Shown here: positions 1,473 to 19,582 of the stretch, one piece after another | Numbering within the stretch: position 1 is the stretch's first letter | Layout of the letters: each line of letters opens with the position of its first letter | Assembly (NCBI RefSeq): GCF_002154725.1 | Contig: NZ_MTAW01000119.1 | Location: 62,001 to 126,000 of the forward strand | Direction: 5' to 3' | Source: Nostoc sp. 106C | GTDB taxonomy: Bacteria > Cyanobacteriota > Cyanobacteriia > Cyanobacteriales > Nostocaceae | Length of the DNA stretch: 64,000 nucleotides | Notes under the pieces: generated by a model | What the model was told of the DNA's origin: nothing | Databases searched by the model: none | What the model saw: only the letters and a program-made list of their open reading frames with translations | Made by a program: the position numbers and the translations under genes

Positions 1473-1522
1473 TATGAGTTCTCCTAACAGAAAATTTTTA
1501 TACAGTAGGAATTTCCAACAAT

Positions 1523-1720: not shown

Positions 1721-1763
1721 GGAGGACTCCTTAGAACATCAAATTAAATCTTTTGTAGGATTG

Positions 1764-2960: not shown

Positions 2961-2962
2961 AT

Positions 2963-3382: not shown

Positions 3383-3447
3383 ATATTGTTTCGATTATTC
3401 CTGATATTGTTCTTGATATTTATTGGAGATAATTACGACGTTATTTG

Positions 3448-3789: not shown

Positions 3790-3849
3790 ATGAGAAGTAT
3801 GTTTGAGGCTTTTCATCAAAGATAGCCTCGTCATCGACTCTCAAACGAA

Positions 3850-3868
3850 CGGAGCGCTTAAGGCTCCG
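3850..3868 (-). terminator. Hairpin after the collagen-like gene
   Basis: CGGAGC (3850-3855) and GCTCCG (3863-3868) form a perfect 6-bp stem with a 7-base loop, 27 bases beyond the stop of the collagen-like gene on the minus strand. No clear T-run follows, so it may be a weak or processing hairpin rather than a classical terminator. Confidence 0.35.
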
Positions 3869-3894
3869 TAGCAACGTATGCTCAACGAGAGCCG

Positions 3895-6147
<2,253 letters not shown>

Positions 6148-6723: not shown

Positions 6724-6729
6724 AATTAA

Positions 6730-7314
6730 TTATGAAAACTTTAATAAATCAGCAATCAGATAAATTTCATTCACACCAAAACTGACTGCATCGCCTAAGT
6801 TTGGTGATTGAATATTTGTACCTGATACCCTGTATTGAATTTGCAGATTTTTACTAGAACCGATTGTGAAACAACCACTTAAAAAATTAATTGAATCAAA
6901 GGAAGAATTGAACCCCCATGCACTTAAACCAAGTAGTATTGTTGTGTTGTCGGTAGTGTTCTGTAATCTTAGTTTTGTGGCGTTTCCTAGATAAAAAGCG
7001 GCTTTGCAATCCAACCAGTAAGTACCAGCCGGAAGCACAAAAGTATTACTAGAAAGAGTTACTTGGGAGGTTTGGTCTGTTGCGACTGTATTAACAGTCC
7101 TTGGTTGCCAAGAGCCGGAAGTAAAACTACCGCCAGCCGTACCACTGGTTCTAGAATCTAGAAGTTGAATGTATTTTAGATTTGTTCCAGTTGGGACAAG
7201 ACTTAATATTGAACTGATTGGGGCTGATTCATAGGAATTATCAGATGAATCTTGGAGCAGCAATAAATCTGAACCTACCGGAGAACTTTTAAGGGGATAA
7301 TCCTTAATTTGCAT
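6730..7314 (-). CDS. Hypothetical fibre-like protein, 194 aa
   Basis: The N-terminus (MQIKDYPLKSSPVGSDLLLLQDSSDN) is of the kind seen at the start of phage baseplate or fibre adaptor proteins, where a short conserved leader is followed by a receptor-binding beta domain. The rest is Ser/Thr/Asn-rich and beta-like, with no cysteine or membrane helix. It overlaps the next upstream gene by 11 bases and ends six bases before the next downstream one. The adaptor resemblance is from memory and uncertain. Confidence 0.55.
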   Translation of the reverse strand: MQIKDYPLKSSPVGSDLLLLQDSSDNSYESAPISSILSLVPTGTNLKYIQLLDSRTSGTAGGSFTSGSWQPRTVNTVATDQTSQVTLSSNTFVLPAGTYWLDCKAAFYLGNATKLRLQNTTDNTTILLGLSAWGFNSSFDSINFLSGCFTIGSSKNLQIQYRVSGTNIQSPNLGDAVSFGVNEIYLIADLLKFS

Positions 7315-7642
7315 AAGTCGAGTAGCTATCTAGCAAGAAAGTAAACCGACATTTATTGTTAAAAATTGCTGTCTGCCATTGATGTAAACCAGCTACGTCA
7401 TACAAAACACTGTTGTCATAATCAACGCTCATTTGATTGGGAGAAAGGACAGCGTTTCCAGATGGATCTGTTAAGTAGCCCTCAAAATTTTGAGTAGCTG
7501 TTTTGATAATTGCAGCGAAAATTTCTTCGGCTCGATTGTTGGCATTAGGAGTCAAGCCGACTAACCCAGATTTTTGAATCGTCACTGTGGTTGCAGTTTG
7601 GCTGGCTCCTGTGCCAAATACTTGAGCCAAAGTGAGATTCAT
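7304..7642 (-). CDS. Hypothetical protein with TLAQ-FG N-terminal module (paralogue A)
   Basis: The first 55 residues match the start of the protein encoded immediately upstream at 7643-7972: TLAQVFGTGASQTATTVTI here against TLAQIFGANAAQNSTTITI there, then a K-x-x-L and an AEEIFAAII or AESILAAIV helix. The C-terminal halves differ. I know no functional name. The shared N-terminal module with different tails suggests a common docking domain carrying different effectors or fibre parts. Confidence 0.6.
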   Translation of the reverse strand: MNLTLAQVFGTGASQTATTVTIQKSGLVGLTPNANNRAEEIFAAIIKTATQNFEGYLTDPSGNAVLSPNQMSVDYDNSVLYDVAGLHQWQTAIFNNKCRFTFLLDSYSTYAN

Positions 7643-7972
7643 TTAGTAGTCGCCAGGGTTGAATGTTGAACCAGAATCAGTCTTGTCAAAGGTGATAATT
7701 TTGGTTTTTCGGCGGTAAGTCACACTTGAACGAGTTGTTAGTGAATCGTTGCTATCGCTGATCGTTACTGATTGGTCTGTATTAGATGCTTGATTTGTGC
7801 TGGTTAGTGTTGGTTGGGCAAATGCAACGATGGCAGCAAGGATACTTTCAGCCGTGTTACTGCTTGAGGCAACAAATCCAGTACTAGTTAAATCTGCTTT
7901 GGCGATTGTGATAGTAGTAGAGTTTTGTGCGGCGTTCGCGCCAAAAATTTGCGCTAAAGTTGGTTCTGCCAT
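7643..7972 (-). CDS. Hypothetical protein with TLAQ-FG N-terminal module (paralogue B)
   Basis: The first 55 residues are paralogous to the downstream gene at 7304-7642. Residues 60-109 contain DQSVTISDSNDSL and a basic YRRKTKIITF segment. It is the first gene of the minus-strand run and begins about 215 bases from the divergent recombinase gene, so the promoter of the run should lie in 7973-8188. Its stop is one base from the start of paralogue A, which implies tight co-translation. No function is assigned. Confidence 0.6.
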   Translation of the reverse strand: MAEPTLAQIFGANAAQNSTTITIAKADLTSTGFVASSSNTAESILAAIVAFAQPTLTSTNQASNTDQSVTISDSNDSLTTRSSVTYRRKTKIITFDKTDSGSTFNPGDY

Positions 7973-8133
7973 AAAAGCTGATTTTTATTGAAGTGAATAA
8001 ATCAGTTTTATGAGTGATTCAAAGTTATGTAAATATTCCAGTTTTATGTAGAAGTGGCATATTCACCGATGGCGTGTAACTATTGTCAGCACTAGGATTG
8101 AGCAAATATTTACTAATAGTGAATATTAACAAA

Positions 8134-8170
8134 ATTCCGCTTTCACCTGTTCTTAAGGTAAAAGCGGAAT
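8134..8170. other. Long inverted repeat ahead of the recombinase gene
   Basis: ATTCCGCTTT (8134-8143) and AAAGCGGAAT (8161-8170) are a perfect 10-bp inverted repeat, extended by ACC/GGT after one mismatch. It lies 18 bases before the recombinase start and between two divergent transcription units. It could be a recombinase binding or attachment site, an operator, or a bidirectional terminator. The sequence alone does not decide. Confidence 0.5.
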
Positions 8171-8188
8171 ACGCGAAATTCAATTCTT

Positions 8189-8770
8189 ATGCCCAAGATT
8201 AACAGGAAAGGGAAAGCTGCTGTAATTACAGACAGTGAATATTCAAAAATTCGTCGCCAAATTAAAACTGATAAGTATAAATTACTTTGGGACTTGGCAT
8301 GGTACACGGGTGAGCGCTGGGGGGCGCTGATTCAGCTGAAGGTGAGTGATGTGTACCAGAAGAATGGCCGTCCCAAGGAGATGCTGATTTTTCGTGGCAT
8401 CATTCGCAAGCACCGACCAGATGGTAGTGCGGACAATGTAGAAATTCCAGTTCATGAGGTGTTGCGCGAATCGCTCTCTAGGTTTGAACCAGGCGAAAGC
8501 GAATGGCTTTTTCCTTCGCGCTGCGGGACTAAACCAATCACCTGGCGAAATGCCTACGATATTCTCCAAAGAGCTACTGAAGGGGCCGGACTCGGTTCAA
8601 AGGGAATTTCTACGCACACGCCCCGCCGGAGTCTGGTAAACAGACTTCGTAAAAAAGGCACTAAAACTGAAGTGATTCGCAAAATCACCGGACACCGTGA
8701 CAACAAAGGACTTGATCCTTATATAGATGTTGAAATTGATGAGGTCAAAGGGGCGATCGCAACTCTTTAA
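8189..8770 (+). CDS. Tyrosine recombinase, catalytic core only (193 aa)
   Basis: This site-specific recombinase carries the tyrosine-family catalytic set: R43 in TGERWGAL, a candidate lysine near residue 74, H143-x-x-R146 in HTPRRS, H169 in GHRD and nucleophile Y178. It cuts and rejoins DNA through a 3' phosphotyrosine. Integrases of this family usually have 300 or more residues, with an N-terminal core-binding domain; here the protein begins almost at the catalytic domain. Upstream in-frame sequence does not supply the missing domain. Such short forms occur in cyanobacterial mobile elements. It is the likely mobility gene of the island. Confidence 0.88.
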   Translation: MPKINRKGKAAVITDSEYSKIRRQIKTDKYKLLWDLAWYTGERWGALIQLKVSDVYQKNGRPKEMLIFRGIIRKHRPDGSADNVEIPVHEVLRESLSRFEPGESEWLFPSRCGTKPITWRNAYDILQRATEGAGLGSKGISTHTPRRSLVNRLRKKGTKTEVIRKITGHRDNKGLDPYIDVEIDEVKGAIATL

Positions 8771-8842
8771 ATAAACTTCATCTAAACTGTACTGATTTAT
8801 ACACGAATAACTGTTATTTAAACAGAAAAAACTAGCAACTTT

Positions 8843-9007
8843 ATGAACCAGACACTTGCAGCTGAAGTGATTATCTTCGCACCCAAGGTACTCAACGGAC
8901 GGATTACAGACTTAGAAACTATTAAGACTGAGCTACAACGGATTTTAGGCATTGCCTACGATGTGGCTGCTGATAGCCTGCAACCCAGTCTCAGAATTGA
9001 CCCCTAA
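8843..9007 (+). CDS. Small hypothetical protein, 54 aa
   Basis: The ATG at 8843 opens a 54-codon frame beginning MNQTLAAEVIIFAPKVL and closing at TAA 9005-9007. The sequence reads like a real helical protein (GRITDLETIKTELQRILGIA). A perfect inverted repeat, CCCCTAAA (9001-9008) with TTTAGGGG (9011-9018), overlaps the stop and could end the transcript. The gene is 72 bases after the recombinase on the same strand. No family is recognised. Confidence 0.5.
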   Translation: MNQTLAAEVIIFAPKVLNGRITDLETIKTELQRILGIAYDVAADSLQPSLRIDP

Positions 9008-9126
9008 AAATTTAGGGGTTATCGTGTAGTCGGTAGATGCACCCTGGTGTAAACCGCGATCGCTGCTGTGGATTTTGGCGATCGCTTTTACTGGGTTCAT
9101 TAACTGCATTAGAGGAAAGATTTACA

Positions 9127-9157
9127 ATATCTCCCGGCGCGTGGGGGATATTTTTTT
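9127..9157 (+). terminator. Terminator-like palindrome, copy 1
   Basis: ATATCTCCC (9127-9135) pairs with GGGGGATAT (9143-9151), with one G-U pair and a 7-base loop, and runs into seven T residues. This is a good factor-independent terminator for the plus strand. A near-identical copy at 10137-10167 lies inside a coding sequence. Confidence 0.65.
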
Positions 9158-9231
9158 GCTTAAACAAAGAAAGCATCTAGATTTTACCTAGATGCCAACA
9201 AGTGAGTTCTTGAATGGAAATATTTTAAAAA

Positions 9232-9498
9232 CTAAACTGCTGCTGGTTCGGTTGGGATGAGAATACCAGACAGTTGAGTAAGCTTATCGTGCAGTGAGGT
9301 GAGTTCGGCTGTATCTGCACTGACAAGAGCATTAGCTGTGGTAAGTTGCGCTTGTAAATCAGTTATTTGCTGGTCTTTTTGGACAAGTTGCTCGTCTTTT
9401 GCAGCTAACTGTTGCTTGTAGCTGTTTTCTCGCTCTACGGCAGCCAAGATGAAAGCTACAGCTGCATCGAACAGAGCGTTGATTGCGGTGAAGTCCAT
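9232..9498 (-). CDS. Small coiled-coil protein, 88 aa
   Basis: Residues 5-20 form an amphipathic or weakly hydrophobic helix (INALFDAAVAFILAAVE). Residues 22-75 are a continuous heptad-rich coiled coil (KDEQLVQKDQQITDLQAQL). There is no catalytic motif. Such short helical proteins occur beside phage or plasmid genes as scaffolds or antirepressors, but I cannot name this one. The gene stands alone and faces the plus-strand small gene. Confidence 0.55.
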   Translation of the reverse strand: MDFTAINALFDAAVAFILAAVERENSYKQQLAAKDEQLVQKDQQITDLQAQLTTANALVSADTAELTSLHDKLTQLSGILIPTEPAAV

Positions 9499-9685
9499 TT
9501 TTTTTACATCAGGTAGTTGAACTTCACATTTTTAGCATGGGCTTCTAAAAAAGGCGATCGCGTTTTTCATCAGACACTATTGGCATTAGCTAGCAATAAA
9601 AAATTTGCGTTTAAGCACTTTGCTAACAAAAAATCAATACTTTGACCGCTGTTGATGGGCCTCAAAAACGGCGATCGCCCAGCTT

Positions 9686-9895
9686 CTACTTATTGAGAAT
9701 GCTTGACACTAGGGATGATGTGATCTGAGTTTCTAAAACTGTGCAATTGATTTTGAGTTTAATGTTGCTTTGGATTTGAGCCAAAACTGCAACTTTGTAT
9801 TTAGGAATGTTCTGATATGGCAGGAGTTCAACTACCGTGCCCCATCTGCTATTACAAATACAAACTTGATCGCCAACTGAATAATAGTGTTCCAT
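9686..9895 (-). CDS. Hypothetical protein, 69 aa
   Basis: I chose the methionine at 9895 (MEHYYSVGDQVCICNSRWGT). The frame is open to 9952, but that extension is encoded by a CCTTGTC-type heptamer repeat at about 9902-9921 and is unlikely to be coding. The product resembles a small SH3-like barrel, with VGDQV followed by GTVVELLP and KYKVAVLAQ. Function is unknown. Confidence 0.5.
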   Translation of the reverse strand: MEHYYSVGDQVCICNSRWGTVVELLPYQNIPKYKVAVLAQIQSNIKLKINCTVLETQITSSLVSSILNK

Positions 9896-10000
9896 TGGGG
9901 CATAGGGGGACAAGGGGACAGGGAATATTGATGTCTTATTGCCAATTGGCAATAAACATCATGGTAAATTGCCGTGTAACACGGCATTTGAGGCGATAGC

Positions 10001-10339
10001 ATGGCAAGGACTAGCACGACCTGGGACAGTGGTAGCAGATGGCAGCATGGCGAAACTAAAACTATCCGCGTACCCATTGCCCTAGAAATACCAGTGATGG
10101 ATTATGCTAGAGCGATTGACTCACATAATGGAGGCGATATCTCCCAGCGCGCGGGGGATATTTTTTTGATTTTGCAAGTAATCGAAAAGTACATTGATTA
10201 CAAGCGTACCAACTACCACCCGAATCAAAATTCCAGAGAACTGGACATTAATACTCGTGCCTGGGATGAGTTGCGGAAGTTTAAGAAGCTGCTACAAGAG
10301 AATCCAGAAGCGCTAGGACTTACGCCAGGAGCAAATTAG
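10001..10339 (+). CDS. Hypothetical mobile-element protein, 112 aa
   Basis: The product begins MARTSTTWDSGSRW with a following GETKTIRVP, then a predicted helix ending in YKRTNYHPNQNSRELDIN and a C-terminal WDELRKFKKLL. Proteins of this look recur in cyanobacterial plasmids and islands; their function is unknown. Residues about 46-55 (DISQRAGDIF) are encoded by a palindrome that also exists outside genes at 9127, which looks like an in-frame insertion. The 3' end overlaps the convergent gene at 10313-10972 by 27 bases. Confidence 0.6.
   Translation: MARTSTTWDSGSRWQHGETKTIRVPIALEIPVMDYARAIDSHNGGDISQRAGDIFLILQVIEKYIDYKRTNYHPNQNSRELDINTRAWDELRKFKKLLQENPEALGLTPGAN
10137..10167 (+). repeat. Palindrome copy 2, inserted in frame in a gene
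   Basis: ATATCTCCC (10137-10145) and GGGGGATAT (10153-10161) plus T-run repeat the element at 9127-9157, with two base changes in the loop. Flanking DNA is unrelated. The reading frame of the 112-residue protein passes through it without a stop, although it has terminator form. Confidence 0.65.
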
Positions 10340-10972
10340 ATTTTCAATCTCTGTGGGCGATTCCCCATCAGCGATCGCACTTTCAACCTCAGATTTTCGA
10401 TTTTTGGCGATCGCACTCTCAACCGAGCCAATGTAGCGGCGGTGAATTTTTCGCCCGAGCATCCAGGCATAACGGTAATACCAATACTTGTTACCTTCAC
10501 GCTGTACCCAGTACTTCTCTACCCAATGGGTTTGCTTATCGTGTTGGTGAGCAGATTTTTTAGTATTAGTGGTAACTTGCTCACCAACAAGAGAATTTAC
10601 GGTATTGGGTTTAGTATCACTCTCTACTTGCTCACCAACACGTAATCGCCACTCGTACCAGGCTTGCTCATACTCAGCGAGATTTTGGTAATCGTCCGGA
10701 TCGGGCGGTTCGTTGCTGTCATCGTAGAAAATTGTCAGCTGATCGCCGTCTGCCTTGTGTGGCACTTCCCCGAAATCAGCAGGATTCCACCGATCGTCAG
10801 AAAAACACTCCTGAGATGATGGGCACTCAGGAGCAGAGGAATTATCTACCTTTTTACTGGCTAATTGATGGTCAAATGTATCATGTTTATCCCAAGCACG
10901 GTCATATACAGGGGCAGCCGCAACAGGAGCGATCGCGTCCAAATTAAACAAAGTTAGCTGCTCAGGACTCAT
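10313..10972 (-). CDS. Hypothetical island protein with Trp/Tyr-rich motif, 219 aa
   Basis: The N-terminal 100 residues are acidic and low in order. Residues 148-185 hold a dense aromatic and basic motif (HWVEKYWVQREGNKYWYYRY, then GRKIHRRYIGS) of the type found in cyanobacterial mobile-element proteins that may bind DNA. The C-terminus has two similar AIA-K/D segments. The start ATG overlaps the stop of the upstream gene (ATGA, 10969-10972), showing translational coupling. No enzyme motif is visible. Confidence 0.6.
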   Translation of the reverse strand: MSPEQLTLFNLDAIAPVAAAPVYDRAWDKHDTFDHQLASKKVDNSSAPECPSSQECFSDDRWNPADFGEVPHKADGDQLTIFYDDSNEPPDPDDYQNLAEYEQAWYEWRLRVGEQVESDTKPNTVNSLVGEQVTTNTKKSAHQHDKQTHWVEKYWVQREGNKYWYYRYAWMLGRKIHRRYIGSVESAIAKNRKSEVESAIADGESPTEIENLICSWRKS

Positions 10973-11169
10973 GACTCACCCCCACGGCGGTGAAACGGGA
11001 CTATGGAGTGAGTAACTGTCTCGGACAATTCTTTGAGTGCAGCTGACCAAGCCAGGGTAAAAGCTACTGGCATCTGTTGAAAGTCAACTTCATCAATGAA
11101 TCTTCTGCGAATCCAGTTTTTGAAAATTTCCACCTGTTGGTGGTCGAACAAGTAGTGTGAATCATTCAT
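10969..11169 (-). CDS. Small hypothetical protein, 66 aa
   Basis: The product (MNDSHYLFDHQQVEIFKNWI...) is helical with a basic FKNWIRRRF segment. AGGAGATTC precedes the start on the minus strand, a good ribosome binding site. It is coupled by a 4-base overlap to the 219-residue gene downstream. No family is recognised. Confidence 0.55.
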   Translation of the reverse strand: MNDSHYLFDHQQVEIFKNWIRRRFIDEVDFQQMPVAFTLAWSAALKELSETVTHSIVPFHRRGGES

Positions 11170-11229
11170 AATGTGAATCTCCTTTGAATAGTGCGCCGCT
11201 TTTCGCGGCTATTTTTTTCTCATTGGGTT

Positions 11230-12135
11230 TTAGGAATAATCTCTAGGGATGTTCTGTGGTAATAAATTGCCCAAGATATTGAAAAAGTCTTCAACTTTAT
11301 CCGGCCAAGTGAAGTACCAACATTCGCGTAAGCACTTAATTAACCAACCTTGAGGATTAGAAATAATTGGTTTGCCATTGCCGCGCTTTTCAAATCCACC
11401 AGCTTTAATGAAGTGTTTTATAGCTAGTTCAACTTCTTCAATCTGATAAGAGAATAGTTCTTGAGTGCCTGTCGTATGGGGATGGTAATAAATCCCATAG
11501 TCAGCACAAATTTTTAATATGTCGTAGCGTCTTTCTAATTCTTGGTATTGTTCACTTGACCATTGCTCTAAAGAAGCCTTGATTTCAGCAATGGAAAGGT
11601 TAACAGGTATTTTCGTAATAGGTGGTTGATAACCGTATTGTTCGCAGAGTTTAACTACCTCAAGTATCTTCCCTAACTCTTCACGTTCGCTCTCAGATAT
11701 CTTAGGAATATAAGTGTTGTTGTTGTTAACCCCGTCCCTTACTGATTGGTCGTTTGAGGTGGTTAAATCGCAAGACGAGTTGCAGTTTTGCAAGTGATTT
11801 TGCGAATTTTTTTTACGTGGTTTTAACCAGTCAAAGGGTCTTAAAACTATTCTGTAAGCTGTACTACTGAACTCTTTGATTACTTGGATTATTCTATGGT
11901 TTATCAGCCATTTGAAGCGCTTCTTGAGCCACCACCGAGCAAATTTAGTACCACGGTGTTTAGTTACAAATTGCTCAAACTCTTCTAAATCAATTTCTAT
12001 TTGTGTACCGATTTTTCCTTGTAATGCTATCCATTCCCACAGTGCTTGAGTCAATGGAATTGTGTTCTGTTCTAGGAAAAATGCGAGTTCTTTTTCTGTC
12101 CTGGGTGACAGAGTTTTTGATGCTTTTAATGTCAT
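11230..12135 (-). CDS. Winged-helix protein, possible replication initiator
   Basis: Residues 10-105 look like a winged helix-turn-helix region, with a basic helical stretch (RGTKFARWWLKKRFKWLINH) followed by IIQVIKEFSSTAYRIVL, which could be the wing. A low-complexity Asn/Ser linker spans about 110-140. Residues 145-290 are helical, with a C-terminal ISNPQGWLIKCLRE motif that recalls the end of DnaD-like or plasmid and phage replication proteins. Four 21-bp iteron-like repeats lie 1.1 kb away at 13204-13287. A replication role is therefore reasonable but inferred. It could also be a transcription regulator of the element. Confidence 0.5.
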   Translation of the reverse strand: MTLKASKTLSPRTEKELAFFLEQNTIPLTQALWEWIALQGKIGTQIEIDLEEFEQFVTKHRGTKFARWWLKKRFKWLINHRIIQVIKEFSSTAYRIVLRPFDWLKPRKKNSQNHLQNCNSSCDLTTSNDQSVRDGVNNNNTYIPKISESEREELGKILEVVKLCEQYGYQPPITKIPVNLSIAEIKASLEQWSSEQYQELERRYDILKICADYGIYYHPHTTGTQELFSYQIEEVELAIKHFIKAGGFEKRGNGKPIISNPQGWLIKCLRECWYFTWPDKVEDFFNILGNLLPQNIPRDYS

Positions 12136-12234
12136 AATGAGAGTAGAGATTTTGATGGTTTGCCTCTTAGTAGCTGGTAACTCTAGGAGGCATTTTAATT
12201 TTTTATGTATTAAAAATCAGGTTGTTAGCTGTTA

Positions 12235-12459
12235 CTAAGAGCCATACTCATAGCCATACTTTTCCTCAAAATAATCTGCACATTCTCGCCAACACCAACC
12301 CCCGAATTCAATCTGTGAGGGTTTTAACATCATTTCTAAAAGCAGTTCTCTGTCAACAATTTGTGGCTCATTAAGTCCAAGGTCTGGGGCGTATACCCAG
12401 ATTAAGTAGTTTGCTTGGGTGTATTTCTTTGGATCGAGGAAATCGGGGGAATTAGTCAT
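12235..12459 (-). CDS. Small hypothetical acidic protein, 74 aa
   Basis: The product ends in WRECADYFEEKYGYEYGS and has no recognised family. Its start codon lies inside a tandem GTCATTN heptamer array (12455-12482), so the first codons (MTNSP) derive from repeat sequence. This makes the exact start uncertain. It lies between the replication-like gene and the RHH locus on the same strand. Confidence 0.5.
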   Translation of the reverse strand: MTNSPDFLDPKKYTQANYLIWVYAPDLGLNEPQIVDRELLLEMMLKPSQIEFGGWCWRECADYFEEKYGYEYGS

Positions 12460-12482
12460 TGGTCATTGGTCATTAGTCAACG
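12455..12482. repeat. GTCATTN heptamer array
   Basis: Four 7-base units run in tandem: GTCATTG, GTCATTG, GTCATTA, GTCAACG. Related units GTCAATG, GTCAATA, GTTATTG, GTCATTA occur at about 13172-13199. Short tandemly repeated heptamers are known from heterocystous cyanobacteria. Confidence 0.7.
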
Positions 12483-12553
12483 GCGATCGCACTTTGAGGT
12501 GAGGGGCGATGCACCCATTAAAAACCGCCCTCACCCATGCGGGCAGGACGGTT

Positions 12554-12756
12554 TTACTTGACTTGTATTACGTCATCTCCAGTCTTTTCGCGAGCCACCA
12601 GGTGATAAATGTCGCTTTTTATCTGGTTTGACTCTTCCTTAAATTCATTTTCAGCTTCTTCACTTTCTCCCAGCCGCGCCCTTAGCCGAGCTTGGTGAGA
12701 ATGCACGTATTCTAAATGCCGCTTTTCCAGGGCTTCCAGGCGCTCTAGGATTTTCC
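12554..12756 (-). CDS. Coiled-coil extension read in the -1 frame of the RHH gene
   Basis: Downstream of the RHH stop, the -1 frame continues for about 67 codons with convincing protein sequence: ILERLEALEKRHLEYVHSHQ, then a charged helix to VIQVK. It has no ATG of its own near the junction. The RHH frame reads CTG GGA AAA TCC TAG, so the heptamer G-GGA-AAA (12751-12757, minus strand) could slip by -1 and join the RHH domain to this coiled coil, giving a fusion of about 130 residues. Alternatives are transcript slippage, a lost base in the A-run, or independent initiation. Confidence 0.5.
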
Positions 12757-12942
12757 CAGCAGTTGTGTCTCTGACTGTGGCAAGCTTCCAATCGGTATTT
12801 CCCCTGTTGCTATCTTCTCCACTAGCGCTGATCTTGTTAGTCCCATCGCTTTGGCTCTTTTCTGCAACTCCTCCCATGCGCTTTGACTCAGCTTGAGTCC
12901 CACTGTGGTTACGTCTTCTGCCGATTTCTTTGGTCTTGCCAT
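12745..12942 (-). CDS. Ribbon-helix-helix DNA-binding protein, 65 aa
   Basis: MARPKKSAEDVTTVGLKLS followed by two helices (AWEELQKRAKAMG and TRSALVEKIATG) fits a ribbon-helix-helix (CopG/Arc-like) repressor. It would act as a dimer on direct or inverted repeats and often represses its own promoter. Matching sites lie upstream at 12973-13031. The start ATG at 12942 has no ribosome binding site at normal distance: the strong GGAGG (12962-12966) is 19 bases away and better spaced for an out-of-frame ATG at 12955. The stop at 12745-12747 directly follows the slippery-looking heptamer GGGAAAA. Confidence 0.72.
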   Translation of the reverse strand: MARPKKSAEDVTTVGLKLSQSAWEELQKRAKAMGLTRSALVEKIATGEIPIGSLPQSETQLLGKS

Positions 12943-12972
12943 TTACGCTATCCATGCATTTCCTCCATTTTA

Positions 12973-13031
12973 CATGAGCAGAATAATTAAGCATGAGCAA
13001 AATGCTTGACAAGAGTTCTGCTCATGCTTAA
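12973..13031 (-). promoter_or_regulatory. Promoter and operator of the RHH gene
   Basis: On the minus strand, TTGTCA (13006-13011) and TAATTA are separated by 17 bases, a good -35/-10 pair. The region is covered by ATTAAGCATGAGCA (12987-13000), which is perfectly inverted as TGCTCATGCTTAAT (13019-13032). CATGAGCAGAA (12973-12983) is also inverted as TTCTGCTCATG (13016-13026). A looser copy GCATTAGCAAAATAC lies at about 13050. Repeated CATGAGCA boxes overlapping a promoter suit autorepression by the RHH protein. Confidence 0.65.
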
Positions 13032-13203
13032 TATACATTATGTATTCTGCATTAGCAAAATACTTTTTTTAACTCCCCCACGCCTAGACCTTGCGTGTGT
13101 TCCGGAGCAACTCACCCGCGCCACTGCCAAAGTGCCCCGGCGCGGAAACACCCTAAGTCAAAAGTCCAGAGTCAATGGTCAATAGTTATTGGTCATTAGC
13201 GCG

Positions 13204-13300
13204 GAGTTAACTGCGTAATCATCGGAGCTAACTTCGTAATCATCAGAGTTAACTGTGCAATGTTCGCAGTTAACTATGTAATGTTCGCAGTCAAATAGCG
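13204..13300. repeat. Four 21-bp iteron-like repeats
   Basis: Tandem units occupy 13204-13224, 13225-13245, 13246-13266 and 13267-13287, with a partial fifth from 13288. The common pattern is AG(T/C)TAACT-N-(C/T)G(T/C)AAT followed by (C/G)(A/T)TC. The 21-bp period is two helical turns, as in plasmid iterons that bind replication initiators. No spacers occur, so this is not a CRISPR array. A replication-like gene sits at 11230-12135. The rest of 13032-13533 shows no gene longer than 17 codons. Confidence 0.65.
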
Positions 13301-13476
13301 CTTTCGCTTCACCCGGCGCTGCACAGTCATGCTGTCTCGTTGGAGGTATAAATTTAGACGCTAATCTTTATCTCTCAGTTTGCGATTCAAAATCAAACCA
13401 TGATTCGCCAGTGGTTACTACTGGCGCTTTCCTCCACCTGGGGGAGCTTGTAATCTACAGACGCAATTGAGAAACA

Positions 13477-13513
13477 CCAGCGCTGGCTGGTAAAGCTTGC
13501 GCTGGCCTTTTTT
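13477..13513 (+). terminator. Terminator or attenuator before the 62-aa gene
   Basis: CCAGCGC (13477-13483) pairs with GCGCTGG (13499-13505), and CCTTTTTT follows at 13506-13513. This has factor-independent terminator form for the plus strand. It lies only 20 bases ahead of the start at 13534, so it may attenuate that gene. A further hairpin CGCCAGT/ACTGGCG lies at about 13407-13427. Confidence 0.5.
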
Positions 13514-13533
13514 GAAAAATTGGAAATTAAATT

Positions 13534-13722
13534 ATGACTTACCGCGCCGACCTCAAGCCGTGGGGTGTTTTTCGCTGTGAATCCACAGTTCAGAATGTCT
13601 GCGTTAATCGTTTTCGCGCTCGTTCTGACGCCGAAGCCTACATGAGCATTTTACGCGGGCTAAATCCTGGTGTCAGGTTTGAGGTGGTTTTCGATAAACC
13701 AGTTGAGGTTTCACAAGGATAA
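13534..13722 (+). CDS. Small hypothetical protein, 62 aa
   Basis: The product (MTYRADLKPWGVFRCESTVQ...) has the look of a compact alpha/beta domain: WGVFRCE strand, NRFRARSDAEAYMSILRG helix, then a FEVVFD strand. Such proteins recur in cyanobacterial mobile DNA. The family is not named to my knowledge. A HIP1-built hairpin follows the stop at 13730-13768. Confidence 0.55.
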   Translation: MTYRADLKPWGVFRCESTVQNVCVNRFRARSDAEAYMSILRGLNPGVRFEVVFDKPVEVSQG

Positions 13723-13729
13723 CTCACTC

Positions 13730-13768
13730 AAAAGCGATCGCGCTTTTTTTGGGAGTGCGATCGCTTTT
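13730..13768. terminator. HIP1-built hairpin after the 62-aa gene
   Basis: AAAAGCGATCGC (13730-13741) and GCGATCGCTTTT (13757-13768) form a perfect 12-bp inverted repeat with a 15-base loop. The stem is made from two HIP1 octamers, and A and T runs flank it, so it could end transcripts on either strand. Confidence 0.6.
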
Positions 13769-13802
13769 GATTCAAACACGTCAAACGTGTACAAGGTAAA
13801 TT

Positions 13803-14150
13803 ATGCAGCTTAAAAGTATCAGTTACAAACGAGTTTTAAACCTAGGGAATTACGAAAATAAGCACCTGGAGTTGTTTGCAGAAGTAGCGCTAGGTGAAGA
13901 TGAAAATGCTGCCATTTTGGAACTGATGGAATTGGTAGAGCGTAACATCCGTTCCCAGATTGGTAAGCAATTCCAGAAAGAGATTTTGGATTTAGAAGCC
14001 CAAAGAAACAAGTTATCTGACGAGGTTTATTACCTCAAGCAAGAGCTAATCAAGCTTGGAAAAATCAAGGATGAACCAGCAAAGGAGGATAACCCCGATA
14101 TCCCTTTTGAGACTGGGGGTACTGCAAGTAGCGACCCCGGCAATTTTTAA
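13803..14150 (+). CDS. Hypothetical coiled-coil protein, 115 aa
   Basis: Residues 1-35 are beta-like (MQLKSISYKRVLNLGNYENK) with an acidic following segment. Residues 45-90 are a coiled coil (LDLEAQRNKLSDEVYYLKQE). The C-terminus is acidic and flexible. The start resembles that of single-strand-DNA or plasmid maintenance accessory proteins in cyanobacteria, but I cannot name a family. It is flanked by HIP1 hairpins on both sides and so is probably a single-gene transcript. Confidence 0.55.
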   Translation: MQLKSISYKRVLNLGNYENKHLELFAEVALGEDENAAILELMELVERNIRSQIGKQFQKEILDLEAQRNKLSDEVYYLKQELIKLGKIKDEPAKEDNPDIPFETGGTASSDPGNF

Positions 14151-14157
14151 CTAATTT

Positions 14158-14199
14158 TTTTGCGATCGCGGTTTTTGGGAGAAGAGCGCGATCGCAAAA
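14158..14199. terminator. HIP1-built hairpin after the 115-aa gene
   Basis: TTTTGCGATCGCG (14158-14170) and CGCGATCGCAAAA (14187-14199) form a perfect 13-bp stem around a 16-base loop, starting eight bases after the stop codon. The form parallels the hairpin at 13730. Confidence 0.6.
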
Positions 14200-14237
14200 G
14201 CTCAACCCAACTTAGCTATTGGATTCAAGCCTGAACC

Positions 14238-14483
14238 ATGCACACCATAATATCAGTTCCCACCGTGTTCACTTGCAAAACCCCCGGTTCCGGATGGATA
14301 AATTTGGCCCAAATTCGCCAACTGCAATTTTCACCAGCCGGTGAGACTTTCAATGACGATTTAGTAGTCATCACCTGGGTTAACGGCGATAGTCAACCCT
14401 TTCAAGGTGAAGATGCTACAGCCATTCTCCAAGCTTGGCAGGATGCCCAAGACCGTTGTAATTGCACACCAGAGAAATTATGA
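14238..14483 (+). CDS. Small hypothetical protein, 81 aa
   Basis: The product (MHTIISVPTVFTCKTPGSGW...) contains an INLAQIRQLQF segment, then VVITWVNGDSQPF and a C-terminal helix ATAILQAWQDAQ. It reads as a small beta sheet followed by a helix. Its stop overlaps the start of the next gene (ATGA, 14480-14483), so the two are coupled. Unnamed family. Confidence 0.55.
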   Translation: MHTIISVPTVFTCKTPGSGWINLAQIRQLQFSPAGETFNDDLVVITWVNGDSQPFQGEDATAILQAWQDAQDRCNCTPEKL

Positions 14484-15136
14484 CTAAACATGATACCTGG
14501 GTGAAATTAAAACCCGGCAATCCTTATGAGCCAATTCTGGATTTATTCCCAGATGGCATGATTCCCATGCGCGATCCGTTCCCGCTTGAGCTATCAGCCG
14601 ATGCAAAAGTAGCTTTGATGATCATTGATTTAGAACGCCTCAGCAGTGTTCAAGCAATTGCACTCGCTCAAATTATCGCTCGCCATCGCGGCGCAACCCC
14701 AACTGAAGTTGCAGCCGAGGCAGCTTCCAAAGGTGGCTTTGCGATGAATTACCACTGGGTAGAATCAATGGCTTGTGGCCCCGAAGGTTTCCAGCGAGGT
14801 AAGGAAATGGCTGATTTCTTAGAAAGAAGAACTCAACCACTATCAACCGAAGCTTGGCAAGAATTTTACGACGACCAACACCAACGGTGGATCTCAGGTA
14901 ACGAGGAACCACAACCAATTAATTCAGTTGAAGATATCGACCCCCGCCTGCGAATGGACGGTCAGGAAGAAGCATTGGAACAAAACCGAATTAATCAAAT
15001 GCTTAGTGGTTACTCACTTTTTGATATGTTAACTGGTCGGGCAATGGTGGATATTCTCAATGCAACTGACCCTGATAACAATTATTCACTTGTGGGTTGG
15101 GATGAAGTAGATGAGGATGATGACATTTATGAATAG
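14480..15136 (+). CDS. Hypothetical island protein, 218 aa
   Basis: I use the ATG at 14480, which overlaps the upstream stop, rather than a TTG at 14462. Residues 35-75 are helical (AKVALMIIDLERLSSVQAIA) and hydrophobic but not clearly membrane spanning. The C-terminus is very acidic (DEVDEDDDIYE). There is no catalytic motif. It overlaps the next small gene by eight bases; the three genes 14238-15365 form a coupled operon. Confidence 0.55.
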   Translation: MTKHDTWVKLKPGNPYEPILDLFPDGMIPMRDPFPLELSADAKVALMIIDLERLSSVQAIALAQIIARHRGATPTEVAAEAASKGGFAMNYHWVESMACGPEGFQRGKEMADFLERRTQPLSTEAWQEFYDDQHQRWISGNEEPQPINSVEDIDPRLRMDGQEEALEQNRINQMLSGYSLFDMLTGRAMVDILNATDPDNNYSLVGWDEVDEDDDIYE

Positions 15137-15365
15137 TGAAAATTCAGAAATTGAAAATATTCCCCAACCAGATCCAGCATGGGATTACTACATTCTTTGG
15201 CATTCATTACATCATATTAAAGCCAAAATTAATGCTGCTTTAAAGCTCATAGCAAACAACGAGGATGCAGACTCTGAAATAGACGAGCAGATAAGAATTT
15301 TGCTTAATCCAACTTCTGAAAAGCTAACAGAAATTGTTGAGCAATTAGCTTATGACGATGACTAA
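15129..15365 (+). CDS. Small acidic hypothetical protein, 78 aa
   Basis: I chose the ATG at 15129 (MNSENSEIENIPQPDPAWDY), which overlaps the upstream gene by eight bases; further in-frame ATGs at 15114 and 15117 would only add residues read out of the neighbour. The body is helical with an acidic middle. It is the last gene before the structured non-coding region at 15378. Function unknown. Confidence 0.5.
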   Translation: MNSENSEIENIPQPDPAWDYYILWHSLHHIKAKINAALKLIANNEDADSEIDEQIRILLNPTSEKLTEIVEQLAYDDD

Positions 15366-15377
15366 CCGCCTGATGAT

Positions 15378-15648
15378 GGCTACCTGACACAGTAGCCGAA
15401 ACGGTGGGCAATACGTCCCACCGTCGCGGATTGTGTCCACAGCAATCCGCCCCACTGTTTTAGGAAGTGGGGCGTTAAAACTGAATCGCACGCCTATTTT
15501 TTGGGGTGTTGTGATCTTCAAGCGCACCAATCCTAAGGCTACCGGGTTAAACCCAGCGTTAAGAGTGAATCGCGCCCTTCTATTGATGGGGTGTTAGGGG
15601 ATTCAAGCGTCAAAACTGGGCTTTTAAATTTTCGTGGTGGCACACGAA
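15378..15648 (+). ncRNA. Structured non-coding region, bridge-RNA-like candidate
   Basis: The interval is packed with perfect inverted repeats: GGCTAC/GTAGCC (15378-15397), ACGGTGGG/CCCACCGT (15401-15424), GCGGATTG/CAATCCGC (15426-15450), CGCCCCACT/AGTGGGGCG (15448-15474) and TTCGTG/CACGAA (15631-15648). Between them lie two related units of about 53 bases, 15472-15524 and 15556-15609, each starting GCGTTAA, containing TGAATCGC, then GGGGTGTT, and ending TTCAAGCG, with different loops. It ends 28 bases before the IS110-like gene. IS110-group elements encode a bridge RNA with two guide loops upstream of the recombinase. This region matches that layout, but expression and guide pairing are inferred. 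Confidence 0.55.
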
Positions 15649-15675
15649 TAGCAAACCCCAATTATCAGCAGAACC

Positions 15676-17049
15676 ATGACAATTAAATCGATTACATCTT
15701 TGGGAGTTGATGTTAGTAAATCAAGCATTACTTGTCATATTTTAACATCATATCCAGTCGGAGGATTAAAGAACTATTGGCAAAAAACCAGGACTAAAGC
15801 TAATAATTTATTTCCCAGCTTCTACTCCAATCCTAAGCCTAAAAGCAATCAAAAATCAGCTTTTGACTTTGCTGATTATGTGCGAGAAAACAAGCCTGAT
15901 GTCTCTATTTTGGAACCTACAGGTAATCATTACTCTAGGCTGTGGGCAAGCATTCTCGAAAGCTTAGGAATAAAAATCCTTTGGGTTGGTCACATTGAAC
16001 TACGTCGCTATCGCGGTGGTAAAAACCTCCCAAACAAATCCGATGCTGCTGATGCTTTAGCTATGGCGTCCTATGCTTTGGATCAAGAAAACTATTTAGA
16101 AACTGGCGAACTTAACCCGCGATCGTTTCTTATGCACCGACCACAGTCAATTGACCAACTGCGGGAACTGGTACAGCAACTAGAACACCTTAACCGTGTG
16201 CAGAATCCAATTGTCAACTACACCCGTCAAGCACTAGCTTGGCAATTCCCAGAAAAGGCACACAGTAAGACCGAAAGCACCAAGCTGGGCAATGTCCCAC
16301 CGTTATGGGGTTGGTTAGCGCAGCGCGAATTGGAGGTACATCCCCAAAGTTACAAATCGCTTACCAAACAATACCAGCAATCCATAGCGGTACAACTTGG
16401 ACTGCAAATAGATCCACTTGTGCGACTTCATGCTGATTGGTTGTGTGACATCGATGTTGAGGAGCAGCGGCTAGAAGCCAAACTCAAACCCCTAGTCAAC
16501 GATGAGCAATTCAAAATTTACAACCAAATTTTTGATCAGTTCAATTTTGGGTTGAGAATTCGCGCCCGCCTGCTGAGTCGAATTTACCCATTTGAAGCGT
16601 TCCTTACCAACGGCAAGCCGTTGATTGAGCGGGAAGTGCGGGAAGTTAAGAAAAAACAGGTAAGCCGTGAAGATGGGAAATCTGTAGTTAAGTTTCTTCC
16701 TGGCGACGTGAAGCGGGTTAAACGCAATCGCTCCAGGGATGCTTTCAAGCTCAGGCTAGGTATGGGAACCGTTTTAGAGCAGTCGGGAGACAAGCTAGTT
16801 GAAAAAGGTAGTGGATCATCCCTATGCCGAATGAACTTTTGGCAGTACGTGATCACCAAAATTGAAATTGACGGACGCTTACCTGACAGTCCTATCGGTC
16901 AGGAAATAGGTGATTACAAGAACACGCTTAAAAGCACTGTTGATGCGTCTGGTAAGCAGTTACTTAACGGTAAGCATTTGCAAAATAAGCTGATGGCCAA
17001 AGTTGCCAATATTTTGTTTCGGGAGTTGTCCAGAGCGATCGCAAAATGA
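15676..17049 (+). CDS. IS110-like DEDD recombinase/transposase, 457 aa
   Basis: The N-terminus has the RuvC-like DEDD signature of IS110/Piv enzymes: GVDVSKSS (first Asp, residue about 12), ILEPTGNHY (Glu, about 79) and KSDAADALAMA (Asp pair, about 122-125). The C-terminal part has LGMGTVLEQSGDKL, where QSG could supply the catalytic serine of the IS110 Tnp domain; it is followed by SSLCRMNFW. About 60-80 residues of extra basic sequence (REVREVKKKQVSR) precede that motif, making it longer than typical family members (300-420). IS110 enzymes act with a bridge RNA; the related Piv is a DNA invertase. The stop overlaps the next gene by four bases, unusual for a lone insertion sequence. Confidence 0.78.
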   Translation: MTIKSITSLGVDVSKSSITCHILTSYPVGGLKNYWQKTRTKANNLFPSFYSNPKPKSNQKSAFDFADYVRENKPDVSILEPTGNHYSRLWASILESLGIKILWVGHIELRRYRGGKNLPNKSDAADALAMASYALDQENYLETGELNPRSFLMHRPQSIDQLRELVQQLEHLNRVQNPIVNYTRQALAWQFPEKAHSKTESTKLGNVPPLWGWLAQRELEVHPQSYKSLTKQYQQSIAVQLGLQIDPLVRLHADWLCDIDVEEQRLEAKLKPLVNDEQFKIYNQIFDQFNFGLRIRARLLSRIYPFEAFLTNGKPLIEREVREVKKKQVSREDGKSVVKFLPGDVKRVKRNRSRDAFKLRLGMGTVLEQSGDKLVEKGSGSSLCRMNFWQYVITKIEIDGRLPDSPIGQEIGDYKNTLKSTVDASGKQLLNGKHLQNKLMAKVANILFRELSRAIAK

Positions 17050-17276
17050 GTGAACAACAAGATTATCCAGTTTATGCCCGTCTGTCATCTCAAAAATTAA
17101 GTCAAATGAATACGGAGATGCAGTTTGGCTATGACCCAACGGACGATTTAGATAATGAGTGGTTAAGCGATAAACGCATTAATGAACCACAATACTGTCC
17201 AAGATGTCAGCAGTATTCTGTTTTCTGGGGAAGTTTTGACGAGGTTTGGTACTGTCAAAACTGTGATGATTTTTAA
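17046..17276 (+). CDS. Small zinc-ribbon protein, 76 aa
   Basis: Residues 52-74 hold two CxxC pairs (CPRC and CQNC), separated by about 17 residues, typical of a zinc ribbon. The N-terminal half is acidic. The ATG overlaps the stop of the IS110-like gene (ATGA), so the two are co-translated and the protein may assist the recombinase. A hairpin terminator follows at 17289. No named family is known to me. Confidence 0.6.
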   Translation: MSEQQDYPVYARLSSQKLSQMNTEMQFGYDPTDDLDNEWLSDKRINEPQYCPRCQQYSVFWGSFDEVWYCQNCDDF

Positions 17277-17288
17277 AACCTGATGCTA

Positions 17289-17312
17289 AACCCCTACAGT
17301 AATGTAGGGGTT
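17289..17312 (+). terminator. Terminator at the right edge of the island
   Basis: AACCCCTAC (17289-17297) and GTAGGGGTT (17304-17312) form a perfect 9-bp stem with a 6-base loop, 12 bases after the zinc-ribbon stop. Only a weak T-run (TTGTTAAT) follows. It separates island genes from txlA. Confidence 0.65.
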
Positions 17313-17377
17313 GTTAATATCCCAGTAACTTACTAGAGTGAAGATCATACTGCTTAATAAGTTTTAATAATTCTGTT

Positions 17378-17968
17378 ATGACTCCGGATTCACCTGTTAA
17401 TTCTCCAGCAAAGCCTGAATCTACTATGGGGGCGCGTGTGAGAAATTTCTTAATTGCGATAGTCGCGATCGCCCTCAGCGTCGCCCTGGTTTTAGGGCTG
17501 CGAACTGAGACAACTTCGGCTTCCCTGACTAAGTTAGATGAAGCCTCAATACCCTTAGAAGTCGCTATCAGCAACGGTAAGCCCTCGCTGGTGGAGTTTT
17601 ACGCTGATTGGTGTACTGTCTGCCAAAAAATGGCACCAGATATGGCTGAGTTAGAACAGCAATATGCTGACAAGCTAAATTTTGTCATGCTGAATGTGGA
17701 TAACACCAAGTGGCTGCCGGAAATGTTGAAATATCGGGTTGATGGAATTCCCCATTTTGTATTCTTGGGTAAAAACGGGGAAACTATAGCGCAGGCGATC
17801 GGCGATCAACCACGCGCTGTCATGGCTAGCAACTTAGAAGCTTTAGTAACTGATTCCTCTTTACCTTACGCCCAAGCTAGCGGACAAGTTTCCAAATTCT
17901 CAGCACCAGTTGCACCAACAACTAGCCAAGATGATCCACGCAGTCATGGTAGCCAGGTGGTAAATTAG
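17378..17968 (+). CDS. txlA: TxlA/HCF164-type membrane-anchored thioredoxin
   Basis: Residues 23-41 form one membrane helix (FLIAIVAIALSVALVLG); residues 60-165 are a thioredoxin fold whose active site is WCTVC (C79, C82) preceded by FYAD. The cis-proline motif appears as GIPH. Family members face the thylakoid lumen or periplasm and deliver reducing power for cytochrome assembly, as HCF164 does for cytochrome b6f. The C-terminal 30 residues are low complexity. The gene has its own promoter region after the island terminator, and marks return to core chromosome. Confidence 0.88.
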   Translation: MTPDSPVNSPAKPESTMGARVRNFLIAIVAIALSVALVLGLRTETTSASLTKLDEASIPLEVAISNGKPSLVEFYADWCTVCQKMAPDMAELEQQYADKLNFVMLNVDNTKWLPEMLKYRVDGIPHFVFLGKNGETIAQAIGDQPRAVMASNLEALVTDSSLPYAQASGQVSKFSAPVAPTTSQDDPRSHGSQVVN

Positions 17969-18778
17969 CAACGTAATTACTTATAGAAGTTTTGACTTCG
18001 ATAAACCACAGAAAGCAGGAAATAGGTAAGCATTACCTTAAAAATTTGTACTTTACTCAATTAGAAATCACTATATTTTTACCCTCTTAGGTAGGCAATA
18101 AATATGAAAAAATTACCACCTAACTAAGAGGAATTTTTATTGTTACTTTAATTACTAATTAGTTTTTATACCTATATAAATATCCATACATGAACTTGTT
18201 AATAATCAAACGTCAGCCTTGGATGAGTTTTTTTTAATATATGTAGATATAAGAACTCAGAGTAAAAACATCAAGCTCTAAAAAATTAAGTTATTTTAGC
18301 GCATTTTAGGTGGGAAAATATCTGAAATACAAAAAATTACTCTACGGATTGTAAGAATCCTACTTTGGTATTAGATAATTTTTTTGTTGGCAAGCCATAA
18401 CTTTATAAAATTTTCAGTTTGTTCTCATAAATACAATAGATTTCTCTTCAGCAAAGTATATTCAAAATAGACTGGCTTAAATCCTGGCTTTTCTAAACTT
18501 AGAAGCTAAAAATTTAACTGAAAGTTTGAGATTTCGTTAAATCTTTTGTGGCAATTTACTAGAGTCTTATGCGTACAAACTGAACATTTATTATCCAAGT
18601 GTTTGTCTTACTAGAACAATTTAAGCCTTAAGTACAACATCAAACAAGTATATATAAAAGTAACGACCAAAAACATTTCTTGTTTGTTCCAAGATTATTG
18701 TTAATAGCCACTATGGTAATAGAGCAATACTAGAAATGTATGAAAGCTTCATCAAGTAAAACTCACATATTTTCTATT
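17969..18778. other. AT-rich intergenic region, 0.8 kb
   Basis: No gene is visible. A hairpin CCTCTTAG (18083-18090) with CTAAGAGG (18124-18131), followed by AATTTTTATTG, may end the txlA transcript. The remainder is AT-rich with many stops in all frames and probably carries the promoter of the SDR gene downstream. Confidence 0.5.
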
Positions 18779-19582
18779 ATGAACACAACACATCAACGAA
18801 ACCCCAAAAAAACTGCTCTTATTACTGGAGCAGCTAATGGGATTGGCTACGAACTAGCATATATTTTTGCCTTTAATGGCTACAATCTGGTATTAGTAGA
18901 CAGAATGGCGCACAAATTAGCTGAAGTTGCTAATAAATTCCGAGACGAATTTGGTATTTCTGTTAAACCTATTGTCAAAGATTTATCTATAAAAACCTCA
19001 CCTGAAGAGATTTTTACTGAGTTACAACAAGAATTTATCAAAGTTGATGTGCTAGTGAATAATGCTGGATTTGGTATTTATGGATTATTTAATGAAACAA
19101 ACTTGAATACTGAATTAGAAATGCTACAGGTAAATTTAGTATGTCTTACCCATTTAACTAAGTTATTCCTGAAAGATATGGTAAAGCAAGGTGAAGGAAA
19201 AATATTAAATCTTTCCTCTGCTGCTGCTTTTCAACCAGGCCCTTTAATGGCAGTTTATTTCGCTACTAAAGCCTATATATTATCATTTTCACAAGCACTG
19301 GCGAGCGAATTAGAAGGTACAGGTGTTACTGTAACAGCCCTTTGTCCAGGCCCAACAGAATCAGCCTTTCATGAAAGAACAGGGATTGCGGGTGCTAAAC
19401 AGGTAGAAAATAATAACATGATGGAAGCAGCAACAGTAGCTAAAATCGGTTATCGCGCTTTAATGGAAGGTAAAACTGTTGCTATTCCTGGGTTAAAAAA
19501 TAAATTACTTGCTGAAATTGTTAGATTTACACCGAGAAATCTAGTAACGAAAATTGTGAAAAATATGCAAGAAATTAAATAG
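18779..19582 (+). CDS. Short-chain dehydrogenase/reductase, 267 aa
   Basis: This is a classical SDR oxidoreductase with a Rossmann fold. It has the cofactor motif TGAANGIG (residues 16-23), NNAG (94-97), catalytic serine in NLSSAA (146-147), Y160 and K164 in YFATK. Sequence LVLVDR after strand two, with no basic residue at the usual site, leaves NAD or NADP preference open. The substrate cannot be told. I use the ATG at 18779 (MNTTHQRNPKKTALI); an upstream in-frame ATG at 18740 would add 13 residues without obvious homology. It is monocistronic. Confidence 0.85.
   Translation: MNTTHQRNPKKTALITGAANGIGYELAYIFAFNGYNLVLVDRMAHKLAEVANKFRDEFGISVKPIVKDLSIKTSPEEIFTELQQEFIKVDVLVNNAGFGIYGLFNETNLNTELEMLQVNLVCLTHLTKLFLKDMVKQGEGKILNLSSAAAFQPGPLMAVYFATKAYILSFSQALASELEGTGVTVTALCPGPTESAFHERTGIAGAKQVENNNMMEAATVAKIGYRALMEGKTVAIPGLKNKLLAEIVRFTPRNLVTKIVKNMQEIK

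Follow-up and report, generated by a model that had tools for sequence, protein, structure and literature searches.

In the passages of PMC11208160 on which we draw, IS110-family elements such as IS621 are described as 'minimal', with a DEDD recombinase of 300-460 amino acids (aa) that carries a conserved serine, and with an RNA encoded in the non-coding left end whose promoter forms when the element ends are joined. This RNA lies upstream of the gene and has a target loop and a donor loop; its guides address opposite strands around a short common core (CT in IS621), and the donor is more conserved than the target (PMC11208160, which also lists Piv among its references). Passages of a second report, on IS1111/IS110 seekRNAs (PMC11187229), likewise have a non-coding RNA of the element guiding the DEDD enzyme, and in IS1111 the RNA lies downstream of the gene and the element has sub-terminal inverted repeats of 7-17 bp. 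A capacity of bridge recombination for larger cargo has been demonstrated by engineering (passages of PMC11208160 and PMC11187229), and engineered cargo genes can be moved by seekRNA elements (PMC11187229). Here we describe a large candidate relative of these systems in Nostoc sp. 106C (contig NZ_MTAW01000119.1), where 'the window' denotes the whole stretch of 64,000 nucleotides (nt) that was analysed and to which all positions refer. We read window 1246-17342 as a 16-kb element that is integrated and excised by its own IS110-type DEDD recombinase, with guidance from a bridge RNA whose sequence immediately precedes the recombinase gene, and we hold this reading at a probability of about 0.93.

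The element resembles IS621 and the IS110 group in its DEDD enzyme with a conserved serine, in an upstream RNA with predicted target and donor loops, in guides to opposite strands, in a donor that is more conserved than the target, and in a short common core; with the seekRNA elements it shares a non-coding RNA that would guide the DEDD enzyme. Its anatomy is different. Elements of this family span 10-17 kb and hold many genes, the core is GAA instead of CT, and the RNA is internal rather than placed in a non-coding left terminus; in the window element, 14,132 nt separate it from the left boundary. Unlike that of IS1111, the RNA is upstream of the gene, and the longest exact inverted match between the 60-nt ends of 15 elements is 4-7 nt, which is within the shuffle range (shuffle means 5.3-5.8). 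Judged from sequence, enzyme and RNA place the system in the IS110 bridge-recombinase class, whereas the element anatomy does not; it represents a large multi-gene variant. In the titles and abstracts of open-licence PMC literature we found no report of natural multi-gene IS110 bridge elements; an IS110 element with passenger genes may have been described earlier.

Element boundaries and loop guides

The extent of the element (16,097 bp, plus strand) was established by comparison with an empty site in a related genome (G006, locus L064). Positions 918-1465 of that locus correspond to window 687-1248 and positions 1462-3588 to window 17339-19468, the flanks being continuous there and exact to the base. 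The empty site reads GTTAAACTGAAGATGATACTGC; in the window the left junction reads GTTAAACT followed by GAATCCCCACTCGG, and the right junction TTACTAGAGTGAA followed by GATCATACTGC. Because the flanks left of 1248 and right of 17339 are joined in G006, the mobile unit is 1246-17342, from the left GAA core to the right GAA core. An earlier note on this DNA had delimited a unit at 15378-17276; an RNA and a recombinase do lie there, but the true unit is far larger. The DEDD gene sits at the right end of the element, its stop codon 293 bp from the boundary. The host gene to the right encodes a thioredoxin-like protein and is presumably txlA; it has strong relatives (E < 1e-50) in 55 of the 58 genomes searched and weaker ones in the other three.

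The region upstream of the DEDD gene contains two alike internal loops, the first predicted to bind the target and the second the donor. In the first, the left target guide (AAACTGAA, 15478-15485) has the same letters as the left target half with the core (AAACTGAA, 1241-1248), and the right target guide (TGATCTTC, 15512-15519) is the reverse complement of the core with the right target half (GAAGATCA, 17340-17347). In the second, the left donor guide (AGAGTGAA, 15562-15569) has the same letters as the right end of the element (AGAGTGAA, 17335-17342), and the right donor guide (GGGGATTC, 15597-15604) is the reverse complement of the left end (GAATCCCC, 1246-1253). All of these are given on the plus strand. 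Each of the four guides agrees over 8/8 nt, three of which are the common core GAA, and in each the next outward base is mismatched. The words for the window element are GAGTGAATCCCC (donor) and AAACTGAAGATCA (target), with TTACTAGAGTGAATCCCCACT for the joined ends and GTTAAACTGAAGATCATAC for the target. The target address thus comprises about 13 nt, five on each side plus the 3-nt core.

Further unfilled targets were found for two related elements. The joined flanks of the G004 element occur uninterrupted in G003 and G007 (183/183 nt, 99%), and those of the G007 element in G002 (181 nt, 95%). These unfilled targets contain the predicted words AATGAGAATCTAG and GGAGAGAACATTAA.

These observations suggest a mechanism in which the first loop would pair with both halves of the chromosomal target around the GAA core, one guide per strand, and the second loop with the element's right and left ends once these are joined. 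Strand exchange by the enzyme would then take place at the core, and each junction would retain a single GAA. Copies would reach different sites by rewriting the target loop, while the donor loop would keep its likeness to the element ends. What is documented at the level of sequence comprises the boundaries, empty sites, guide matches, guide-flank covariation, RNA structure and the predicted enzyme fold. Transcription of the RNA, binding by the enzyme, a circular intermediate, strand exchange and present activity would be expected by analogy with IS621, as described in passages of PMC11208160.

Guide and flank agreement among relatives

A first set of relatives comprised 25 upstream regions. 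It left out G001, which has no recognisable upstream RNA, the 3' fragments G105:C36 and G107:C68, and shorter fragments; four loci with a truncated or frame-shifted gene (L054, L055, L039 and G103:C384) were retained, the upstream region being present. Short terminal motifs served to find the element ends, and the guide was then checked against the 5 nt adjoining the core. For L055, the right donor guide was entered by hand rather than extracted. In the alignment of the 25 regions the target guides differ in nearly every copy, and the donor guides are constant within subgroups. Located left ends lie 8.9-15.4 kb upstream of the DEDD gene, and in the first-set elements (n = 24) the right end lies 33-449 bp downstream.

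Variation in the target guides is matched by variation in the flanks. On the right, the end motif was found in 24 of the 25 first-set elements, and 104/120 flanking nt equal the guide (18/24 flanks exact); when guides and flanks were re-paired 100,000 times, the mean was 35.3 nt and the maximum 63. With 12 loci found by the RNA model added, agreement is 161/180 nt, with 28/36 flanks exact (re-paired mean 53.6, maximum 85). The guides of ten later loci were read by pattern. On the left, a left-end motif was located in 17/37 elements, and 15 of these 17 match at 5/5 positions (79/85 nt overall); re-pairing gives on average 1.06 exact left flanks and at most 8. Where a left flank offered two motifs the better site was taken, which applies to two cases, one that fits (G326) and one that does not (G102:C70). 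In the other 20/37 elements the upstream DNA examined, 336-8,963 nt, was shorter than the shortest left-end distance seen (8,974 nt).

G297 and G330 are two elements that the RNA model brought up after the rule had been set; their guides were read before the ends were searched for, and both ends of both were correct. Six more loci gave exact right ends in 4/4 and exact left ends in 3/3 cases with a located motif; a right end could not be recognised in two of them, nor a left end in three. These six were the long-flanked, previously uncounted loci among 14 matching sources, and their reading was not blind, guide and flank standing in the same output. In L162, a second left-end motif does not fit the guide. 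Together with the six-locus additions, the 36 right and 17 left junctions supply natural target and donor pairs of known outcome. The earlier note had proposed a bridge-RNA system of a multi-gene island in place of a plain insertion sequence, and a covarying structure, loops that match target and donor, and a rule that held in G297 and G330 bear this out; its loops fit element ends and flanking DNA in the window and in homologous insertions, with the exceptions given below.

Several observations weigh against this reading. Eight of the 36 right flanks are inexact; six of them agree at 3 or 4 of 5 nt, the right flank of G106 agrees at 1/5 and fits only after a one-base shift, and that of G103:C455 agrees at 0/5, a left end occupying the expected place of the target. 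Both left-flank misses are G102 elements, for which no guide-fitting left end occurs in about 39 kb. The G105 assembly contains 16 left-end motifs, none of which is the left junction predicted for the G105 element, whose right flank fits. Donor guides also agree imperfectly: the left donor guide matches the right end at 8/8 positions in 10, 7/8 in 7 and 6/8 in 7 of 24 first-set elements, and the right donor guide matches GAATCCCC at 8/8 in 10 and 7/8 in 15 of 25. Perfect donor-guide matches are limited to the window's subgroup, other subgroups reaching 6-7 of 8. The right end GTTACCCTGAA of one subgroup was first located by means of the guide in six elements, which makes the right-flank match partly circular; G297 is an independent check of this subgroup. 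Finally, a scan of 15100-15700 found no sigma-70-like promoter. In G042, G242a and G242b a one-base change of the right end is mirrored in the donor guide, and part of these right-end sites were sought using the guide itself.

Unusual arrangements of ends were seen at a few loci. At G103:C455 (L106) and G105:C20 (L250) a left end directly follows a right end, as it would both in a circular form and in a head-to-tail tandem, which would look alike; the G105:C20 junction lies 250 bp past another left-end motif. At L101/L135 (G105:C61), read directly from the letters, an element of another subgroup lies upstream of what is apparently the same thioredoxin-like gene as that beside the window element. 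The left target guide of this G105 element is identical to the right end typical of the window's subgroup, suggesting insertion into the end of an older element, but the left junction predicted from this is the one that was missing above.

The upstream RNA and its recombinase

The RNA region immediately precedes the recombinase gene, whose ATG is at 15676. Four perfect stems (GGCTAC/GTAGCC, CGGTGGG/CCCACCG, CGGATTG/CAATCCG and CCCCACT/AGTGGGG) are packed into 15378-15474, as the earlier note had reported, and additional stems follow up to 15648. All four are there, but the last is used neither in the minimum-energy fold nor in the consensus fold, where the 3' half of it is taken up by the stems closing the target-binding loop. 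RNA 15378-15668 has a predicted folding energy of -107.5 kcal/mol, compared with -86.3 +/- 5.5 for 200 dinucleotide-preserving shuffles (z -3.87), of which 0/200 equalled it.

A consensus structure from 24 sequences comprises 48 pairs, with compensatory changes in 14, so that the covariation called for in the earlier note was found and the upstream structure is conserved in homologues. In this alignment 97.6% of cells are paired, and the value falls to 36-48% when the pairing partners are slid by 1-3 columns. Two-sided changes occur in 70 cells, against a shuffled mean of 19.3, and 0/500 shuffles were as high. The region matched by the covariance model R1 (15378-15680, plus strand) consists of 5' stem-loops, the target loop, the donor loop and a 3' hairpin; its score of 270.9 bits was obtained with the window sequence among those that built the model, and its boundaries are those of the model region, which need not be transcript ends. 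Rfam at gathering thresholds has no match in the window. From its fold and covariation, the hairpin array is best read as a bridge RNA.

The position of this RNA raises the question of how it is expressed without a joined-end promoter. Since it lies 14.1 kb from the left end, a promoter rebuilt at joined ends is unlikely to drive it. Its expression probably has another source, perhaps transcriptional read-through out of the preceding genes.

The recombinase (457 aa, 15676-17049, plus strand) belongs to NCBIfam NF051857 'transpos_IS110_2' (459.6 bits, cut-off 180) and to Pfam DEDD_Tnp_IS110 (30.9 bits, cut-off 29), in agreement with the IS110-like DEDD assignment of the earlier note. It shows the DEDD RuvC-like domain and the Tnp domain with conserved serine that characterise the IS110 group; in an alignment of 20 sequences with 28-88% identity to the window protein, D12, E80, D123, D126 and S370 are invariant. 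S370 lies within an SG motif that a profile search aligned with ISCro4, and we take it to be the catalytic serine. Sequence-profile searches of solved structures reached ISCro4 at E 0.00036 and gave a weak match to IS621 at E 0.041; a single-sequence search of the same structures reached neither. The AlphaFold2 model has a pLDDT (predicted local distance difference test) of 87.6, and the top five Foldseek matches in the PDB are all IS621 or ISCro4 chains, including IS621 8wt9 at E 7e-10. Relative to IS621, the model has predicted extra strands at 317-351. The enzyme had been called longer than usual; it is long, yet within the range of 300-460 aa given for the IS110 group in passages of PMC11208160. 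The window genome contains a single match to the recombinase, and the family constitutes a new subfamily of enzymes that could be tried on large inserts.

The recombinase gene overlaps, through the ATGA seen previously, a 76-aa open reading frame (ORF; 17046-17276, plus strand), which we regard as accessory. Its zinc-ribbon label derives from its CxxC pairs, and family searches gave no match. By tblastn (E <= 1e-4) a relative is present at one locus, L048; this ORF was therefore rejected as a conserved partner, and the proposal that a zinc-ribbon gene forms part of the unit did not hold.

At seven loci (L040, L041, L042, L045, L057, L060 and L062) we observed the 3' part of the recombinase alone, extending to or near the gene end. 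Some adjoin other element genes, and retention of the 3' part is regular across them. On a simple reading, these are decayed elements.

Cargo, distribution and alternative readings

Fifteen elements with both ends located measure 10,142 to 16,682 bp, and a sixteenth two-ended element is present in L162. RNA-guided recombination appears to carry large natural cargo and not solely tiny insertion sequences, and nature appears to move gene sets of 10-17 kb to many sites through rewriting of an address of about 13 nt.

The window element contains 27 ORFs of at least 60 aa, called by a mechanical rule. A run of minus-strand ORFs (1239-7972) includes a tail-fibre-like protein and a 749-aa protein with collagen repeats (3895-6144, minus strand), whose C-terminal end is conserved in other elements; the leftmost ORF of the run (1239-1472, minus strand) extends 7 bp beyond the left end of the element. 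It is followed by a gene for a short tyrosine recombinase (193 aa, 8189-8770, plus strand), of which a relative is present in 15/15 elements examined, then by the backbone genes F1, F14 and F3 (10313-12135, minus strand), and by small genes 5' of the bridge RNA (F5, F6, F10, F11 and F12; 13534-15365, plus strand). Among eight gene-clustered elements the tyrosine recombinase, F1 and the DEDD recombinase each occur in 8/8, F3 in 7/8, F4 and F5 in 6/8, F6 in 5/8, F10, F11 and F12 in 4/8 each, and F14 in 3/8. The other seven, searched by tblastn, have the tyrosine recombinase, F1 and the DEDD gene in 7/7 and F3 in 4/7. Gene order is mostly kept in G297, G330 and G012 and least in G326.

Products of the minus-strand operon comprise collagen-like proteins, tail-fibre-like proteins and large proteins, one of them coiled, with weak similarity to tape-measure proteins, and one collagen-like protein and one laminin-G-like protein match PHROG families labelled as virion structural protein. 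Among the cargo proteins scanned, which were part of the cargo, no terminase, portal or major capsid protein was recognised. Pattern-based scans of IMG/VR with the recombinase and F13 gave no confirmed relative, and a phage collection held no relative of either. The predicted structure of F7 (pLDDT 73.1) had weak viral matches only (best E 5e-4), which were not used, and PADLOC returned one weak match (E 0.009) for ten small proteins. Relatives of the structural-type operon are carried by two plasmids of Nostocales cyanobacterium HT-58-2, pHT582-1 (CP019637.1, L263) and pHT582-2 (CP019638.1, L262). The likeness lies in related minus-strand operon genes and, on pHT582-1, in a relative of the tyrosine recombinase. 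On both plasmids the operon lies beside annotated integrases and ParB, with ParA too on pHT582-2, and neither carries a DEDD gene (tblastn) or a bridge RNA (model search). The structural-type operon seems to be a module common to plasmids and bridge elements.

The tyrosine recombinase provides the first of three other explanations, namely that it moves the 16-kb element and that the DEDD gene and RNA are a passenger insertion sequence nested at the right end. Its relatives in all 15 elements, and the two plasmids whose related operons accompany annotated integrases in the absence of a DEDD gene, speak for this view. However, if the insertion sequence were nested, a left end should lie close to the DEDD gene, whereas the donor loop agrees with the outermost ends of the complete element; the target loop in turn matches the outer flanks, and targets differ among copies as guide rewriting predicts. 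We consider this explanation very unlikely. Less probable still is a plain IS110-family insertion sequence lying by chance inside an island. Enzyme family, predicted fold and an RNA upstream of the gene are all those of the IS110 group, but the 15 measured elements are without exception 10.1-16.7 kb in length (in 20/37 the left end lies beyond the DNA examined, and a short copy could occur there), and the empty sites are without the whole element, not merely without the recombinase gene.

The Piv/MooV invertases are of the DEDD recombinase class and share its fold, but they invert a segment, and the Piv-like invertase switching cargo genes that the earlier note had entertained was rejected as the least probable explanation of all, since the flanks behave as insertion junctions of an element that is inserted at, or absent from, defined sites, no invertible segment was seen, and none of the five inverted pairs with a length of 20 nt or more (74-87% alike) in 1000-18000 joins the element ends in the window, in the single orientation examined.

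With integration by the DEDD recombinase and its bridge RNA thus preferred, a wider and more tentative proposal concerns the origin of the elements. Bridge-RNA recombination might serve as the integration module of a virus-like or plasmid-like lineage of 10-17 kb in Nostocaceae and related cyanobacteria, which would carry the structural-type operon and choose its sites by rewriting an RNA loop; we regard this as possible but rather unlikely. If particles were made, the element would be an RNA-guided provirus.

The family is thinly spread. Among sampled genomes, the RNA model matched 20 of 291 from the window's order and 18 of 339 from its phylum, counts that are lower bounds under strict filters. 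Sixteen of the 18 phylum matches are in the same order, and the remaining two are 47-nt partial matches and likely due to chance. One element is found on a sequenced plasmid (CP150887.1), where the annotation shows hypothetical proteins, a site-specific integrase, a regulator and a transposase. Most named relatives belong to Nostoc, and others to Amazonocrinis, Dendronalium and Desmonostoc.

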